DNA from: Cristatella mucedo
Taxonomy: Eukaryota > Bryozoa > Phylactolaemata > Cristatellidae
Assembly: GCA_009760855.2 (NCBI GenBank)
Contig: WPIO01000033.1
Location: forward strand, 4,413,938 to 4,477,937
Length of the DNA: 64,000 bases
Direction of reading: 5' to 3'
Shown: positions 5,355 through 60,653 of the stretch, piece by piece
Numbering within the stretch: the first letter of the stretch is position 1
Layout: each line of letters opens with the position of its first letter
Position numbers and translations under genes: made by a program
Notes under the pieces: generated by a model
Told to the model about the DNA's origin: nothing
Seen by the model: the letters and a program-made list of their open reading frames with translations, nothing else
The model's database searches: none

Positions 5355-6220
5355 TGAATGATGTGGCAGCATGTATTGATGACATTCGCACATGGATGGC
5401 AGCAAACTTTCTTAAATTGAATGATGATTAAACCAACTTACTAGATATGGGAAAACCAAGTGTGATTCAGAAATTCGAAAGGCTAATGCTCACAATCGGC
5501 TCTGCCAGCATATCAACTGTTGAATCTGCACGAATACTAGGCATCATGTTCCAAAATGACCTTTCATTGGATGACCACATCGGCTCCGCAGTCAAGTCTG
5601 CCTAATTTAAGCTTCATAACATTGCAAAAAATCGGGCTTGTTTTGACAGGGATACCAAATCTAAATTGGTCCATGCATTTGTGACATCCTGTCTCGACTT
5701 CTGTAACTACTAGCTGGTCTACCGGCCTGTGAAATCAGGTGCTTACAGCTTGTGCAAAACTCGGCAGCTAGGCTTATCTGTCGTGAGTTTCAAAGTTGCC
5801 ACATCACATCACTTCTCACCTACCTGCACTGGCTCCCAGTAAAGCAACACATTGACTTCAAGGTCACTCACTTTTAGGTCTCTTCATTCTTTGGCTCCAG
5901 CCTGCCTATCAGATCTACTCCCCACCAGGCTAAGTATCGTACCACCCGCTTTTCAGAATCTAATCGTTTAACTATACCTCGTACAAACATCAAATTCTTT
6001 GGAAAATGTGCCTTTAGTTAGTTTGCTCCCAAGGTCTCGAACTCACTTCTGACTTGTGTCATGACATCCCCTGACTTGACCACATTTGAAAAGAAACTAA
6101 AAATGCATCTATTTATCACAGCATTTAACGGGTTCCTGTGATTCGTCCTTTATGTGCTTATGTATGCTCACACTGTGCATGCTGCCACTAACCATATTTG
6201 CATGCTAACCCTGTGCATGT
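5355..6220 (+). mobile_element. L2/CR1-like LINE fragment, set A (decayed ORF2 C-terminus)
   Basis: Conceptual translation with stops and frameshifts gives the family's post-reverse-transcriptase segment: MGKPSVIQKFERL, then LGIMFQNDLSLDDHI, then KSKLVHAFVTSCLDFCN, then FRSLHSLAPA. The order matches the better-kept copy at 47440-48200. It is nonfunctional. Its 3' tail resumes at 6403 after an inserted SINE-B. Confidence 0.88.
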
Positions 6221-6242
6221 CACCCCTAAATAAAAATAAATA

Positions 6243-11429: not shown

Positions 11430-12540
11430 ACAATATTAATAACAATACATTTTAGATTTGTATTGTGCCTCAGAGAACTTAATCTCTTTCTAGGCACTTT
11501 ACATATGCTGTAAAGAAATCGTGACCAAATGGTTAGTGGCAACATGCACAATGTGATCAGGCATAACACGGTTAGAGGTGACATGCTAAGGGTCACCATG
11601 TAGACATGTTTATTGGCAGCAGGCAGAGTATCAGCACACACAAGCACAAAAAGGAAAAATCACAAGGACTCACTAAATACTGTGATAAACAGGTGCATTG
11701 TAAGCTTCTTTTTAAATGTCGTCATGTCAGAGGATGTCGGACCTAAGTCGGGAATGAGTTCCAGCCTTCGGGAGTGTTCGAACAAAACACACGGGCTCCA
11801 GAGGATTTGAGGTGTATTTAAACAATTTGAGTCAGAACAGAGGGTGGTACGATGCATCGCCTAGGGGGGGGGGAGTAGTTCCGACGGGTAGGCTAGAGCC
11901 AGAGAATAAAGAGACCAGAAAGTGAGTGACAGAACCTTGAAGTCGATATGCTGCTTGATTGGGAGCCAGTGCAGGTCGGCGAGAAGTGGTGTGATGTGGC
12001 CACTGCTGAGCTCTCGACAGATAAGCCTAGCTGCAGAGTTGTGCACAAGCTGTAAGCGCCTGATTGCACAGGTCGGTAGACCAGCAAGCAGTGAGTTATA
12101 GAAGTCGAGACGGGATGTCACAAATGCATGGACCAATTTGGATGCAGTATCCTTGTCAAAGCAAGCCCGAATTTTAGCAATGTTACGTGGCTGAAAGTAG
12201 GTAGATTTGACTGTGGAACTGATGTGATCATCTGTGAAAAGTGACTGTGGAGCAGGACACCAAGATTACGTGCGGATGCAACAGGAGATGTGCTGGCAGA
12301 GCCTATTTCGAGCGATAATCATTCCAATTTCTGAGTAACACTTGGTTTGCTCATAACTAGTAAGTTGGTTTTATCCTCATTTAATTCGAGAAAGTTTGCT
12401 GCCATCCATGTGCAGATGTCTGCAATACATGCAGCAAGGGTGCATAGAGAACTCGACATGCTGGCAGCTGGGAGGAATCATGGCAAAGGTACAACTGAGT
12501 GTCATCTGCATAGAAGTGAAAGCCTAGATTGTGCTTGACG
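11430..12540 (-). mobile_element. L2/CR1-like LINE fragment, set A
   Basis: Minus-strand translation gives DVCTWMAANFLELNEDKTNL-type residues, then LVHAFVTSRLDFYNSLL, then CAIRRLQLVHNSAARL, then HITPLLADLHWLPIKQ, then IDFKVLSLTFWSLYSLA. It ends in the L2 tail (AGTGCCTAGAAAGAGATTAA, then GTTCTCTGAGGCAC) and an AT-rich terminus. The reading frame is broken; this is a 5'-truncated dead copy. Confidence 0.9.
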
Positions 12541-23910: not shown

Positions 23911-24321
23911 AGAGGCAGAAGAGAGCAGACGACGCCGAGAGGCAGACGATGCCGAGAGGCAGACGACGCCGAGAGGCAGACGACGCCGAGAGGCAGACGA
24001 CGCCGAGAGGCAGACGACGCCGAGAGGCAGACGACGCCGAGAGGCAGACGACGCCGAGAGGCAGACGACGCCGAGAGGCAGACGACGCCGAGAGGCAGAC
24101 GACGCCGAGAGGCAGACGACGCCGAGAGGCAGACGACGCCGAGAGGCAGACGACGCCGAGAGGCAGACGACGCCGAGAGGCAGACGACGCCGAGAGGCAG
24201 ACGACGCCGAGAGGCAGACGACGCCGAGAGGCAGACGACGCCGAGAGGCAGACGACGCCGAGAGGCAGACGACGCCGAGAGGCAGACGACGCCGAGAGGC
24301 AGACGACGCCGAGAGGCAGAC
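23911..24321 (+). repeat. 17-bp minisatellite, about 23 near-identical copies
   Basis: The unit is GACGACGCCGAGAGGCA. Because 17 is not a multiple of three and the unit has no stop in the relevant frames, long ORFs run through it on the plus strand in all three frames and on the minus strand (translated period 17 residues, RRREADDAERQTTPRG). The ORFs of 127-273 residues here are consequences of the repeat. Units are almost identical, implying recent expansion. Confidence 0.97.
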
Positions 24322-33860: not shown

Positions 33861-34792
33861 CTGTCGTAGGCCTCGTTGTCCAGATCGCACCGGTCGTCCT
33901 TGTAGCGCTCCCAGTCCTTGCCGTGCCGGCAGGTGGTGAGCATTATAATGTCTTTGCCGTTGTGCAGATGGTGAACGAAGTTCCTCGTCTCCGAGCCGAT
34001 ACCGACCAGGTAGCGCTTGCCCTTGAACGCCAGCAAGTACTTGTCGTTGGAGGGCACGTTCAGGTTGCCCAGCTTGCCCGGCTCACCTCCTTTCTCGGCG
34101 AGGACGTCGTGAAAGAGCGGCAGCGATATGTCGAAGTGGGGCCTGAAGTTGTGCGTCGAAATGCTGGCCTTGGCGAGCATCGCGTAACCGTAGTCGAAGT
34201 CCAAGTGCTCCGAGTAGTCGGGCCACGTGCCCGAGTACAAGTTGAACACGATGTGGTTCCGGCCGCCGTTCCAGTGCGGCAGCTCGCTGAGCCGCTCCAT
34301 CAGGCTCCGCACGTACCAGTCGCGGCTCAGCGGGTCTCGGTCCAGCGTGTCGAGCGCCAGCACGAACACGCACGCGTCGCGAGCGCTGTCCGTGTAGTAG
34401 GCGGACGCCTTTAGCGAGCGGATGATTTTGGCGTACGACGGCGAGACGGGCGCCGCCGCCGGGTACACGTACACGCGAAACGAGTCGCCGCTGCAGCGCG
34501 CGTGGTCGAAGCAGTTGTCCATGCGGCACTGCACCGGCCGCTCGGGCAGCGCCTTGCCAGGGCCGCTCGGGTCGACCGCGCCGCTAATCTCGACCTGCGA
34601 TGCGAACGAGCCCCGCCGGCCGGCCTCCAGCGACGGCGCTGGGCCGAGCGGCCGTGACGCCGCGTCCGCGCCGTCGTCGCTACCGCCGCCGCCCACGATG
34701 TGCGCTCCCCACGCCAGCAGCACGGTGAGCACTACGCTCAGCGCTAGGCCGACACTAACTACGAGACAAAAGAGAGGCTTGAAGCGCACCAT
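33861..34792 (-). CDS. EXT1: EXT1 exon 1: N-terminus, membrane anchor and start of exostosin domain
   Basis: EXT1 with EXT2 forms the Golgi/ER type II membrane polymerase that extends heparan sulfate by alternating GlcA and GlcNAc addition. This exon gives 310 residues plus a split Arg codon. I start at the ATG at 34792 (MVRFKPLFCLVVSVGLALSV); the codon before it is GTG. Residues about 6-33 form one hydrophobic anchor after a short basic N-terminus. Residues about 34-85 are a Gly/Ser/Pro/Ala-rich stem. From about residue 88 the family sequence begins: CRMDNCFDHARC, FRVYVYP, CVFVLALDTLDRD, GRNHIVFNLYSGTWPDYS, MLAKASIST, FRPHFDISLPLF, FKGKRYLVGIGSETRN, LLTTCRHGKDW-type (here MLTTCRHGKDW). It closely follows human EXT1 (exon 1 coding 962 bp from memory; here 932 bp, same phase 2 end). 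Coding GC is far higher than the surroundings. The donor is AG|GTGAGA. EXT2 and EXTL proteins fit less well. Confidence 0.97.
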
Positions 34793-47439: not shown

Positions 47440-48200
47440 AAGCGGCAGAAACTCATGATTATGATAAAACTAACTTACTAGTTATGGGCAAACCTAGTGT
47501 TATTCAGAAATTGGAAAGGCTGACTTTCAAAATTGGCTCTGCCAGCATATCTCCAGTTGCATCAGCTCGAAATCTAGGTGTCATATTCCAAAGCGACCTC
47601 TCGTTAGACGACCACATCAGCTCCACAGTCAAATCAGCCTATTTTCAGCTTCATAACATTGCTAAAATTAGGGCTTGTTTAGATAAGGATACCACGTCCA
47701 AGTTGGTCCATGCATTCGTGACATCTCGTCTCGACTTCTGCAACTCACTGCTTACTGGCCTACCAGCATGTGCGATCAGGCGATTGCAGCTGGTGCAAAA
47801 CTTTGCAGCTAGGCTTGTCTGTCGTGAGCGTCGCAGTTGCCACATTACTCCACTTCTCGCCGACCTGCACTGGTTACCAGTTAAGCAACGGATTGACTTC
47901 AAGGTTTTGTCGCTCACTTTTAGGTCCCTTCATCCTATGGCTCCAGCTTATCTTTCAGATATACTACCCCATCAGGCAAAGCATCGTACCACTCGCTTTT
48001 CGGAATCCAACAGTCTAGAAATACCTCGTACAAACCTTAAATCCTTTGGAGACCGTGCATTTAGTTTATATGCTCCCAAAGCCTGGAACTCCCTCCCGAC
48101 CTGCGTCAGAACATCCCCCAACCTGACCACATTTAAAAGGAACCTAAAAACACACCTATTTAGGACAGCATTTAGCGGGTCCCTGTGATTCGTCCTTGGT
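47440..48200 (+). mobile_element. L2/CR1-like LINE fragment, set A, best preserved (ORF2 C-terminus intact frame)
   Basis: One uninterrupted frame (within an ORF at 47382-48188) encodes the post-RT region: LVMGKPSVIQKLERL, SLDDHISSTVKSAYFQL, SKLVHAFVTSRLDFCNSLL, IRRLQLVQNFAARLVC, CHITPLLADLHWLPVKQ, RIDFKVLSLTFRSLHP, KSFGDRAFSLYAPKAWNSLP, then a stop. It has no reverse-transcriptase catalytic domain or endonuclease, so it is 5'-truncated. The open frame suggests a fairly recent insertion. The L2 3' tail is not obvious after 48215. Confidence 0.93.
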
Positions 48201-49985
48201 GTGCTTATTATTATACACATGGAGACATTCGGCGGACATTAACCAGCTCTAGGTCTCGGATAACACACTAAGGTTCCTTCCCAAGGCACTGGTGACTGAA
48301 CCGATGTGGCAGCAGCTTCATGGATGATGCAACATTGTGCTGGTAAATGTCAATGTGGCACCACCTTTCCAGATTATGGCTCTTGAATTCCACAGTTGCT
48401 TATCGAATATCTTCTATTTTCACTCTCTCGACGGAACTTTGCCGAACTAAGGATGAGTGCAACTTTGGGAAGACACTCAAGAGTATCGTCAGATTTGTTT
48501 AAGCTTTTGCTAGATTCTATCGTAGTACAATTTCATGCCGTTGCTCAAGACTACCGCATGCTTGCCCCTCGGTCTTGGCTCTCTTCACGACCCAGGTTTT
48601 GGGTACAGGAGCAGGCCATTCTTTATTGCCCAGTGAAACTGGAGTAACAGCAGCAACTGATAGCAGCTACGGCTCTTCTGACGGCTATGTAAGTAAATGA
48701 GGCTTTTACTTAAGCTAACCTTTACATTTTACTTTGCTTCCAGTTAAGTATGCCTGCCTGCTTCATCCTCCACTTAGCAAATAAAAAATATTTCTAACTG
48801 CAGAGGCCCAAGTGTTAGGCGTGAGATCCATTGCCTCTTTCCCCATCCCACGGTCCCCACCAGCTGGCAGAATGATCAGCCAGCGCTTGCTGAGGGACTG
48901 CTGGCAGGCAGCACGACCTGCTGCCTGCCCAAGGGCTGGCCTCCATGGTCGTGCATTCTAGCATCCATACATCTGCTGGCTTGCCCTACTGATGTGCTGA
49001 GCACATAAAGGACGATTCACGAAGTCGAAGCACATGCTATGAGAAAGAGGGGTTTTATGACATTAGATAGATCACGATAAACAAACTCAAGGCACACATG
49101 GCATTAGAGCCACAATCATAAGACCTCCAGTGCACGTAGCCGACACGGACCATTCACATCAACTACATTGAAGGCAGTGGCATACGATATAAAGAAAAGA
49201 AGTAGAGAGCAGTTAGAGGGTTATCTGAAAGTGGGTCATGCATAGCTAATACTGCTGAACAGTACAATATCATTCCGATCACGTGTTATACAATTTACAA
49301 TCTATTAAAATGAAATAAAAACATACAATGCCACAGGCATCTGGCGATATCTTGAGTATGCAACATGGAAGGCAGTCAGCAAGCAATCCTATACAAGCAT
49401 GGCCTGACAAAACGACTAGCGTCGTGTGCGCCCATGTCGTGCAGCCTCGAGCAGGTCATATTGCTGAGAGACAGCAGACCCAGAGCTGATCTTGTGCCTA
49501 AGCCAGAATGCCAGTGCCTCATGACAAAGAGGCTGCACAAATATAGAAACAGCTCAGTTAATGAGCACCTGAGGCAGCAGAAAAAACCGGCCACAGAGCA
49601 AATATGTCGTCTTGTACATCAAGCCCATGACCACTGGCAAACTCATTTGTGCTCTCCTGCCACCTTTTAAAAATGTGATCATGCATCACCGTCCAGTCAG
49701 TTGCTCTAACTTAGTCAGGGCTAACACACGTCCACACTCAATTTAAGCAGCAGCAGCATCAGCTGCTCACTGACGCCGAGCAATTGTGTTGTAATGCAGC
49801 TGCTGTAAGCAGCTCATGGGCGGAATCCCCAGAGAAGCACAAGGGAGGTCGTGCGAGCATGCCAACAGGTCGCTGAACAGGCATCTACTGTGACCCCTGA
49901 AATGTGCCATTACTAGTGGCACTGCTAGTGTCTTTGGGCTATACTGCCTATTACTTTTGAATAAAGATGCAGACCAATACATGGA

Positions 49986-50144
49986 TCAGAAGTTCTGCTG
50001 TCGCCGCTTCTTAGCATCAATGGCTGCCTGGATTGGAGAGCGCTTGACATGATAACGCTTCTTCAGCTCTTCTATTTCTTTCTCCATATCTATGTCTAGC
50101 TGCTTTATTCGCTCCTGTATCTGCTCTACGGTAAGATCTTTCAG
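49986..50144 (-). CDS. hpo: Hippo/MST kinase last coding exon: SARAH domain
   Basis: The terminal exon encodes 52 residues and a TGA stop: LKDLTVEQIQERIKQLD, then IDMEKEIEELKKRYHV, then KRSPIQAAIDAKKRRQQ, then NF. This is the SARAH coiled-coil domain of MST1/2 and Drosophila Hippo (human ends KRQPILDAIEAKKRRQQNF). It mediates kinase homodimerisation and binding to Sav and RASSF proteins in the Hippo growth-control pathway. The acceptor is TTTTAG, phase 0. The previous exon ends DGDTES, giving DGDTES|LKDL, aligned with human DGDYEF|LKSW. The 3' UTR must lie below 49986. Confidence 0.96.
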   Translation of the reverse strand: MKDLTVEQIQERIKQLDIDMEKEIEELKKRYHVKRSPIQAAIDAKKRRQQNF

Positions 50145-51022
50145 CTAAAACGTATACCACAAATAAATTCCACGAGTTGGGATGCCCCAGGAAGATCGCT
50201 TCACCAATCGAGTTACTTAGAGCACGACATCCCGAGGCAACATGGCACAAAACATACAAAGGTATAGCTTCACTCTGACTTCAGTTGCATGCAACCAAAT
50301 ATCTACTTGTAACGTGCAACCTGAGTTGCATTTATATGTGCACTACAGCTAAACGGAAGATCATCGTACTGTTGTAGACAAAAGCCAATTTCCACCAATT
50401 TTAAATTGACATAGATGCCTAAAGTGGCTCAGTCATTCACTAAAGCAATGATTCCCGACAACCAATGGTGTATTAACGAGCCTACACGTGAACCATCCGA
50501 TTGAGTAATTAATAGATGCAGCACATCTGAGGCATTAATCTAGGCAAATTGCATCGAAGTTATGAGAATAAATCCACAGCCATTTATCTGGGGAAGCTCA
50601 ATTGAAAGTGACACGGATGAGTGAGCCTACGATCCAACGAAGCGATCATGCTTACAGTCTTTTAATCCTCCACAGTTTTATGAACATGCAAGGATGGCTC
50701 TATCTAGGAAAGAGCCGTTGCTTCTATCCTTGCCACCTGCAGGACATTACTGGCACTGACATCACCACACACGTAAAGGCGACTCGATACAACAATCCAG
50801 CTATGTCGCCGTTGTGCAGAAAGAATATACCGTTGAGCAAGGTCGTGCGAGGCAATTGAGAAAGGAGAGGAATATTCGTCGAGGTAAGAAAACAGCTAAG
50901 CGAGTAAAGATGTGAGCACGAAGTGATGACTGAAAAGAAAAGGCCCGAGACTGTTCACATGGCCGTGGCCTGAGAAGTAAAAGCAAAGATGTACCGAGTT
51001 GAGAAGTATTGCAGTTCAAGAG

Positions 51023-51206
51023 CAGTGGTTCCAACCGGTGCGTCACGAACCCTTTGGGGGGTCGAACGACCCTTTAACAGGGGTCGCCTAAGACCATCAG
51101 AAAACACATTTCCACATTTTGCACATAATAGTTTTATGGTCGGGGGTCGCCACAACGTGAGGAACTGTATTAAAGGGTGCCACATTAGGAAAGTTGAGAA
51201 CCACTG
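51023..51206. mobile_element. SPIN-like hAT MITE (nonautonomous, 184 bp)
   Basis: Terminal inverted repeats CAGTGGTTC(T)CAAC open and close the element (right end GAGAACCACTG). Inside are GGGTCGAACGACCCTTTAAC, then AGGGGTCGCCTAAGACCATC, then GGAACTGTATTAAAGGGTGC and CACATTAGGAAAGTTGAGAA. From memory these match the short nonautonomous SPIN (Space Invader) hAT elements of tetrapods and some invertebrates. The flanking 8-mers (TTCAAGAG and CTGTAGAC) do not match, so the target-site duplication is lost or the termini are altered. No transposase. Confidence 0.82.
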
Positions 51207-52118
51207 CTGTAGACGCATGTGTGATATAGTTAGCCGTGATTCGTGGAAGCCGATCTAAGGTCCCTAGTAGGTTAGTAGGGCACCAGGAGCCAAAGAACGT
51301 CTTGTAATCGTTAGGCTAAAGGAAATTTGAAGACCATCAAGAACAATGAACAATTTAAGAACAACCTCAACCTATTAGTTTTAGCTAGTCCAAACCTCAT
51401 GTTGGCTCAAAGGGATAAATGGACTGGTAAGGCTTAGGACTGTTTGCATAAACTAGAATTTTTTTTAATGCTGAATGATTTGCCACAGAAGTATCAAGAA
51501 TAAAAGGTATCCAAGCATAATGCACAAACAGGTACCACATTTAAGAGACTTGCTGGACGAGGATCACCATCCTGCCAGCATCATTTAGCTGCAGCAAGTC
51601 AGTTGAAATGCTAAGGAGATACGACTCATCGAGTGCTTACAGTTGAAACCTGACTGAACTTCCTGGTCAGTCCATATAAGTCTATTCGGCCATAAAATTG
51701 CTCGGTGCCGAGTTCCTCAAATAGTGGAGAAAATAGGAAGAAGCAACAAAGCATAAAAAATCGATAGAAAATCTGGGCCAAGGTCGTAATCAAAACCCCT
51801 TGCGATTATTCTTAGCCAAGTATGAACCTCACCACACACTAAAGCGTTACAGTTCAATCTCAGTTACAGATCTCAATTTTTGAATTTACCTTGCTACTTC
51901 CAACACCTACTCAAAGCTCAGAGATTCTGCCATCACCCACTGAGGCTCTTGAGTATTAGCAAATCCTTGCTAATTAATCAAGCAGGGAAACATACTAGCA
52001 GTGCAACTAAACACAAGAAGAAAATTACTTTTATAAGTGCACTACTTTAAGTGAAAGAACTAAGCAGGTGTGTTATAACAGCTGCACTTCTGACCTCTGG
52101 ATTATGCCAATATCAACC

Positions 52119-60303: not shown

Positions 60304-60420
60304 GCAGGACTCCTCTTCTTCTTGCATGACCTGGTCCGACTTGGCCAGCTGAATTTCTTTGGCTTCCTGGATCATATTGTGCAGCTTGCTGCAGGAATCA
60401 GAATTCTTGACGAACACGTG
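60304..60420 (-). CDS. hpo: Hippo/MST kinase exon: end of kinase domain and start of linker
   Basis: A 117-bp phase-0 exon encodes 39 residues: HVFVKNSDSCSKLHNMI, then QEAKEIQLAKSDQVMQ, then EEEESC. It matches human MST1 HPFVRSAKGVSILRDLI, then NEAMDVKLKR, with HPFV changed to HVFV. It completes the kinase C-lobe and leads into the acidic linker. The acceptor is TTGTAG after a 95-bp intron and the donor is GTAAGC. Confidence 0.93.
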
Positions 60421-60515: not shown

Positions 60516-60653
60516 CTTGAGCAACTGGGAGGCAGTGGCTCGTTCTCTTGGGTTCTTGACAAGACATCTCGAGACAAAGTCAGCAAACTCGGGTGACCAA
60601 TCGTCTGGATACCTGAATGACGGCGGTGGCTTCGTAGGTATCATGAATATTGC
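60516..60653 (-). CDS. hpo: Hippo/MST kinase exon: kinase C-lobe subdomains X-XI
   Basis: A 138-bp phase-0 exon encodes AIFMIPTKPPPSFRYP, then DDWSPEFADFVSRCLV, then KNPRERATASQLLK. Human MST1 has AIFMIPTNPPPTFRKP, then ELWSDNFTDFVKQCLV, then KSPEQRATATQLLQ. The conserved Arg of subdomain XI (RERAT) is present. STE20-group (GCK-II) kinases share this layout; the IPTxPPPxFR string is diagnostic of MST1/2/Hippo and relatives, and the SARAH exon makes it Hippo. The acceptor is CGTAG and the donor GTACCC. Confidence 0.96.

Follow-up and report, generated by a model that had tools for sequence, protein, structure and literature searches.

SPIN (Space Invaders) elements of tetrapods, which are also found in Rhodnius and reportedly in Lymnaea, have hAT ends, are flanked by 8-bp TA-centred target duplications, exist in MITE form and occupy distant animal hosts. 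We take an nnnTAnnn target to be a mark of the Buster group of hAT transposons, and SPIN to be a member of that group. According to the available excerpt of PMC11614815, the SPIN, OC1, hAT1 and ET copies of Rhodnius share as much as about 98.1% identity with their counterparts in opossum, squirrel monkey and bat, and the part of PMC4054807 at hand gives 385 SPIN elements for the painted turtle. Biomphalaria glabrata has a further invertebrate hAT near SPIN, with significant identity to it and a copy number of about 1,000, as described in the excerpted text of PMC5440852; that description served for its comparison with our element. Here we analysed a window of 64,000 nucleotides (the whole stretch of DNA under study) that contains one copy of a hAT MITE family with the features listed above for SPIN.

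A hAT MITE in a Hippo intron

An earlier note on this DNA had reported an element of 184 bp with hAT terminal repeats at 51023-51206, and both observations were borne out by our analysis. The same ends recur in genome copies next to 8-bp target duplications, and the outermost bases of the window copy, CAGTGGTTC-CAAC and CAGTGGTTCTCAAC, pair as an imperfect inverted repeat in which 13 of the 14 columns match and one holds a gap (left repeat at 51023-51036, plus strand; right repeat at 51193-51206, minus strand). The target duplication of this copy is regarded as decayed, because the left flank TTCAAGAG (51015-51022) and the right flank CTGTAGAC (51207-51214, central TA retained) match at only 4 of the 8 positions. 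A near-palindromic subterminal block, GGGGTCGAACGACCC, is located at 51058-51072, and GGTCG appears additionally at 51082, 51138 and 51145; the block, or the GGTCG motif, is a possible transposase-binding motif. No second copy of the element was found in the window.

Exons of a Hippo/MST kinase gene, encoded on the minus strand, were recognized on both sides of the element. The last exon of the gene, coding for the SARAH domain (49986-50144), matched Mst1_SARAH with an E value of 6e-15 as well as STK3 and Drosophila Hippo. Upstream of the element, a C-lobe exon at 60516-60653 gave a weak Pfam match below the cut-off (E 0.0086) and a further C-lobe exon ends at 60420; the joint peptide of the two matched STK3 with an E value of 7.6e-24. 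Since the element sits between the C-lobe exons and the SARAH exon, its previously proposed placement in a Hippo intron is correct, the intron being the interval between these identified exons, in which small exons could intervene.

Other repeats were also observed in the window. A 17-bp tandem repeat at 23920-24321 comprises about 24 copies with 99% matches and, on either strand, has several frames free of stop codons. LINE-like copies with a reverse-transcriptase-like tail lie at 5366-6229, 11572-12435 and 47458-48245, among others, and a tRNA-like SINE was seen at 4.1, 12.6, 15.5, 20.9, 36.1 and 44.6 kb.

Copies of the family in the genome

The assembly searched comprised 572,011,866 bases (572 Mb) in 688 contigs. 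A first look produced 2,110 candidates for the element, and all of the best 40, which were then scored, matched at an E value of 0.001 or less. These were the window copy and 39 others, 85-88% identical to it and spread over many contigs; as the best matches of the 2,110 candidates, they are biased towards well-kept copies. Twenty stretches of 10 kb, sampled at random from five large contigs together with two single stretches and amounting to 197.5 kb when N is discounted, contained 1 copy, against 0 on the reversed sequence, which would correspond to about 2,900 copies per genome with the very wide error of an estimate from 1 copy. Random 10-kb stretches of this genome varied widely in G+C, from 0.29 to 0.545.

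The 40 scored places and the copy from the random sample (n=41) were aligned, giving a family consensus of 187 bp that was identical when derived from 28 and from 41 copies. Both ends were complete in 33 of the 41 copies, and in 28 of these 33 the 8-bp flanks were alike at 6 or more positions, the window copy (4/8) being among the other 5. When left and right flanks were paired wrongly as a control, 105 of the 1,056 pairs were alike at 6 or more of the 8 positions, a value raised by the target preference common to all copies. This preference has a TA centre, with T at target position 4 in 59 of 66 cases and A at position 5 in 62 of 66. The fixed ends and the 8-bp target duplications identify the family as a hAT transposon; its short terminal inverted repeats, fixed length, many copies and lack of coding capacity are, together with the fixed ends, those of a hAT MITE. 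Moreover, its targets follow the nnnTAnnn rule, which we take to mark the Buster group.

Divergence from the consensus outside CpG, CpA and TpG, expressed as K2P, had a median of 0.053 and ranged from 0.007 to 0.085 (n=41). At 0.077 the window copy is one of the more diverged, and the copy from the random sample stood at 0.070. We class the window copy as a decayed representative of this hAT MITE family.

Similarity to mouse noncoding DNA

Genomic DNA of the mouse FDH (Adh5) locus, printed in PMC8376875, where the excerpted text leaves the repeat unnamed, aligned with the window copy over 81 columns (62 identities in 79 aligned letters) and better still (67/80) with the consensus of the family; of the printed vertebrate stretches compared, it is the longest, at about 80 bp. 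Against this mouse stretch the window copy scored 40, whereas the best of 200 dinucleotide shuffles of the element reached 17.5 and the best of the window's other 31 2-kb chunks 19. Mouse primers for the Ate1 locus (PMC2767504 and PMC2837401) and for Il1b (PMC10570371), in the excerpts of which the repeat is likewise unnamed, matched three parts of the element: the end repeat (14/14 positions) and two blocks in its interior (18/20 and 15/16). A Cldn8 primer in the accessible part of PMC9880436 was an ordinary one, of no use for the comparison, and the portion of PMC5486091 that was consulted did not contain the element sequence string.

If the element were a generic hAT-Charlie MITE with nothing but its terminal repeat in common with vertebrates, this likeness would follow from the descent of hAT ends and no transfer would be needed. 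The end repeat does turn up elsewhere: it is the one feature that a human primer in the excerpt of PMC2958982 has in common with the element, and it resembles, in part, the end of another hAT in this genome. However, the excerpted mouse FDH match spans 81 columns rather than the 14 of a terminal repeat, and two of the mouse primers, as excerpted, match internal blocks of the element. We consider such an origin improbable.

The mouse repeat matched here is, we presume, a hAT-Charlie repeat of URR1 type, for which both name and consensus are provisional, and this URR1-type repeat presumably belongs to SPIN. The URR1-type consensus used in the comparison, a provisional sequence that serves as a lead and not as a reference, had been written down before the consensus of the host family was built. 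Its two arms agreed with the family consensus at 76/76 and 78/80 positions (154/156). Overall, it agreed at 174/187 positions with the family consensus, versus 160-162 of 183 aligned letters with the window copy, which is without part of the provisional mouse centre; this mouse centre differs from that of the host family, being longer and unlike it. At 14 sites that differ between the window copy and the family consensus, the provisional mouse sequence had the letter of the consensus in 12 and that of the window copy in 0; with the printed mouse copy, this comparison gave 5/6 and 0/6, respectively. Because the provisional consensus predates the host consensus and yet fits it better than it fits the window copy, the resemblance to mouse was not derived from the window.

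The description of the element as SPIN-like in the earlier note thus stands in one part, that of a hAT MITE close to vertebrate noncoding DNA, as seen in the printed mouse letters. The name SPIN itself is one that we infer through the provisional mouse consensus, the family being likened to SPIN by description and by that repeat and not by a SPIN reference sequence. Likewise, the identity of more than 85% to SPIN_NA that had been proposed as support was reached only against this provisional mouse consensus, by the two arms and by the window copy (162/183). Regarding the link between URR1 and SPIN, the available part of PMC10458454 states that URR1B is a hAT-Charlie element and no more than that, and the excerpts of PMC5331948 and PMC5791352 contain general statements only. 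The element gave no match to phages and plasmids, and its patterns gave none in collections of genome contigs and viral contigs, which by design are without animal genomes.

The window copy might also have been retained as a regulatory element of the Hippo intron, and its location in a conserved signalling gene is the one point in favour of such a role. Against it, this copy has a K2P of 0.077, compared with a median of 0.053 and a maximum of 0.085 (n=41), it carries indels in addition to the decayed target duplication, and the mouse likeness is a property of the family consensus, not of the window copy. We give retention for this reason hardly any credence, and the copy probably has no host function.

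The host genome

SPIN copies would be ordinary if the host were a vertebrate or if the contig were vertebrate contamination. The genes that accompany the element speak against both. EXT1 exon 1 was identical to its human counterpart at 123 of 223 positions, the Hippo C-lobe to human STK3 at 43/69, and the SARAH exon to human at 33/52 and to Drosophila Hippo at 25/51, so that identity to human in the neighbouring exons amounts to 55-64%. From vertebrate orthologues, a much higher identity would be expected. The CpG observed/expected ratio was 0.43-0.78 in 28 of the 32 2-kb bins of the window, and the remaining four, at 34-42 kb, gave 0.96-1.19; such mosaic depletion is similar to that seen with gene bodies in many invertebrates and is unlike what is usual in vertebrates. 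As the neighbouring exons are at 55-64% to human and family copies lie on many contigs, the vertebrate contamination that the earlier note had considered was judged unlikely, and a lamprey or other vertebrate host was rejected on the exon identities. Taken together as one reading, vertebrate contamination or a vertebrate host is very unlikely, and the host is, from its sequence, probably not a vertebrate.

An arthropod host is disfavoured. The cuticle family PF00379 had 0 matches in the genome, which is a weak test since PF00379 gave a signal in 0 of 14 controls. In 20 contig ends, each of 400 bp, none of the commonest hexamers was a telomere repeat. With respect to gene order, EXT1 adjoins the Hippo gene; it is represented by 33861-34792 on the minus strand and, beyond large introns, by matches to further exons at around 17.4-17.5 kb and 7.4-7.6 kb. 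The CpG-rich region at 34-42 kb lies between the two genes.

Candidate transposase sources

Of 766 candidates for the PF05699 profile, 150 were scored, giving at least 138 matches; 62 of these reached 73.5-78 bits, and 16 of the 138 were in open frames of 635-642 aa. One match, at C44:3588049-3588285, lay within an open frame of 1,947 aa, far above the others, possibly from a fused or neighbouring gene. With PF14291, at least 46 matches were obtained among the best 150 of 237 candidates scored.

Two hAT families were compared with the MITE. A hAT of about 3.2 kb, from among the PF05699 matches, is represented by two copies (contigs C222 and C210) that are 99.1% alike, with ends TAGGGCTGTACCGG and intact 640-aa frames, and it seems to have been active here recently; the MITE arms are absent from both copies and it was not supported as the autonomous partner. 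The second, a DUF4371-type hAT of about 2.7 kb from among the PF14291 matches, is represented by three copies (C645, C244 and C99) that are 94.6-95.6% alike, one of them with an open frame of 563 aa. It resembles the MITE in its 8-bp TA-centred target duplications and, in part, in its ends, CAGGGGTGTCCAAC, and has hAT transposase frames, but it lacks the MITE arms. As no match to these arms was found in the three copies, it is not taken as the partner. An autonomous partner with the MITE ends was thus absent among these 5 hAT copies from two families, out of at least 138 PF05699 and at least 46 PF14291 matches; the partner transposon may still be present or may have been lost.

Discussion

The similarity of this family to mouse noncoding DNA, as printed in the excerpts consulted, exceeds the vertical expectation set by neighbouring exons at 55-64% to human, provided that the host is not a vertebrate. 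With noncoding arms nearly identical to those of a rodent repeat, horizontal transfer, as put forward in the earlier note, is the best reading. We propose, with a probability of roughly 85%, that a hAT MITE of the SPIN/Buster kind, mobilised in trans, entered a probable invertebrate by horizontal transfer and that the window copy decayed in a Hippo intron. In such a history, the family would have come into the lineage from a pool common with vertebrates, either directly or via a third host. Having no gene of its own, it would have been mobilised by a hAT transposase acting on the terminal and the GGTCG-rich subterminal sequence, and cut-and-paste insertion into 8-bp TA-centred targets may have raised it to perhaps a few thousand copies. 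The window copy would have decayed afterwards within the intron.

Similar invertebrate cases are already in print, in Rhodnius and Biomphalaria, and this family adds one more probable invertebrate genome to what is a textbook example of transposons passing between animal phyla. It also supplies evidence at the level of copies, in the form of a consensus, target duplications and a spread of divergence. The ecology of the host could be compared with possible routes of transfer, and the insertions could be dated in its relatives. A bolder suggestion, which we advance tentatively and hold to be doubtful, is that the SPIN radiation reached, at high copy number, an invertebrate lineage outside arthropods and molluscs with its arms almost as they are in rodents. 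If this were true, the host, or a parasite common to it and vertebrates, would have served the spread of SPIN as a link or reservoir that has gone unrecognised.
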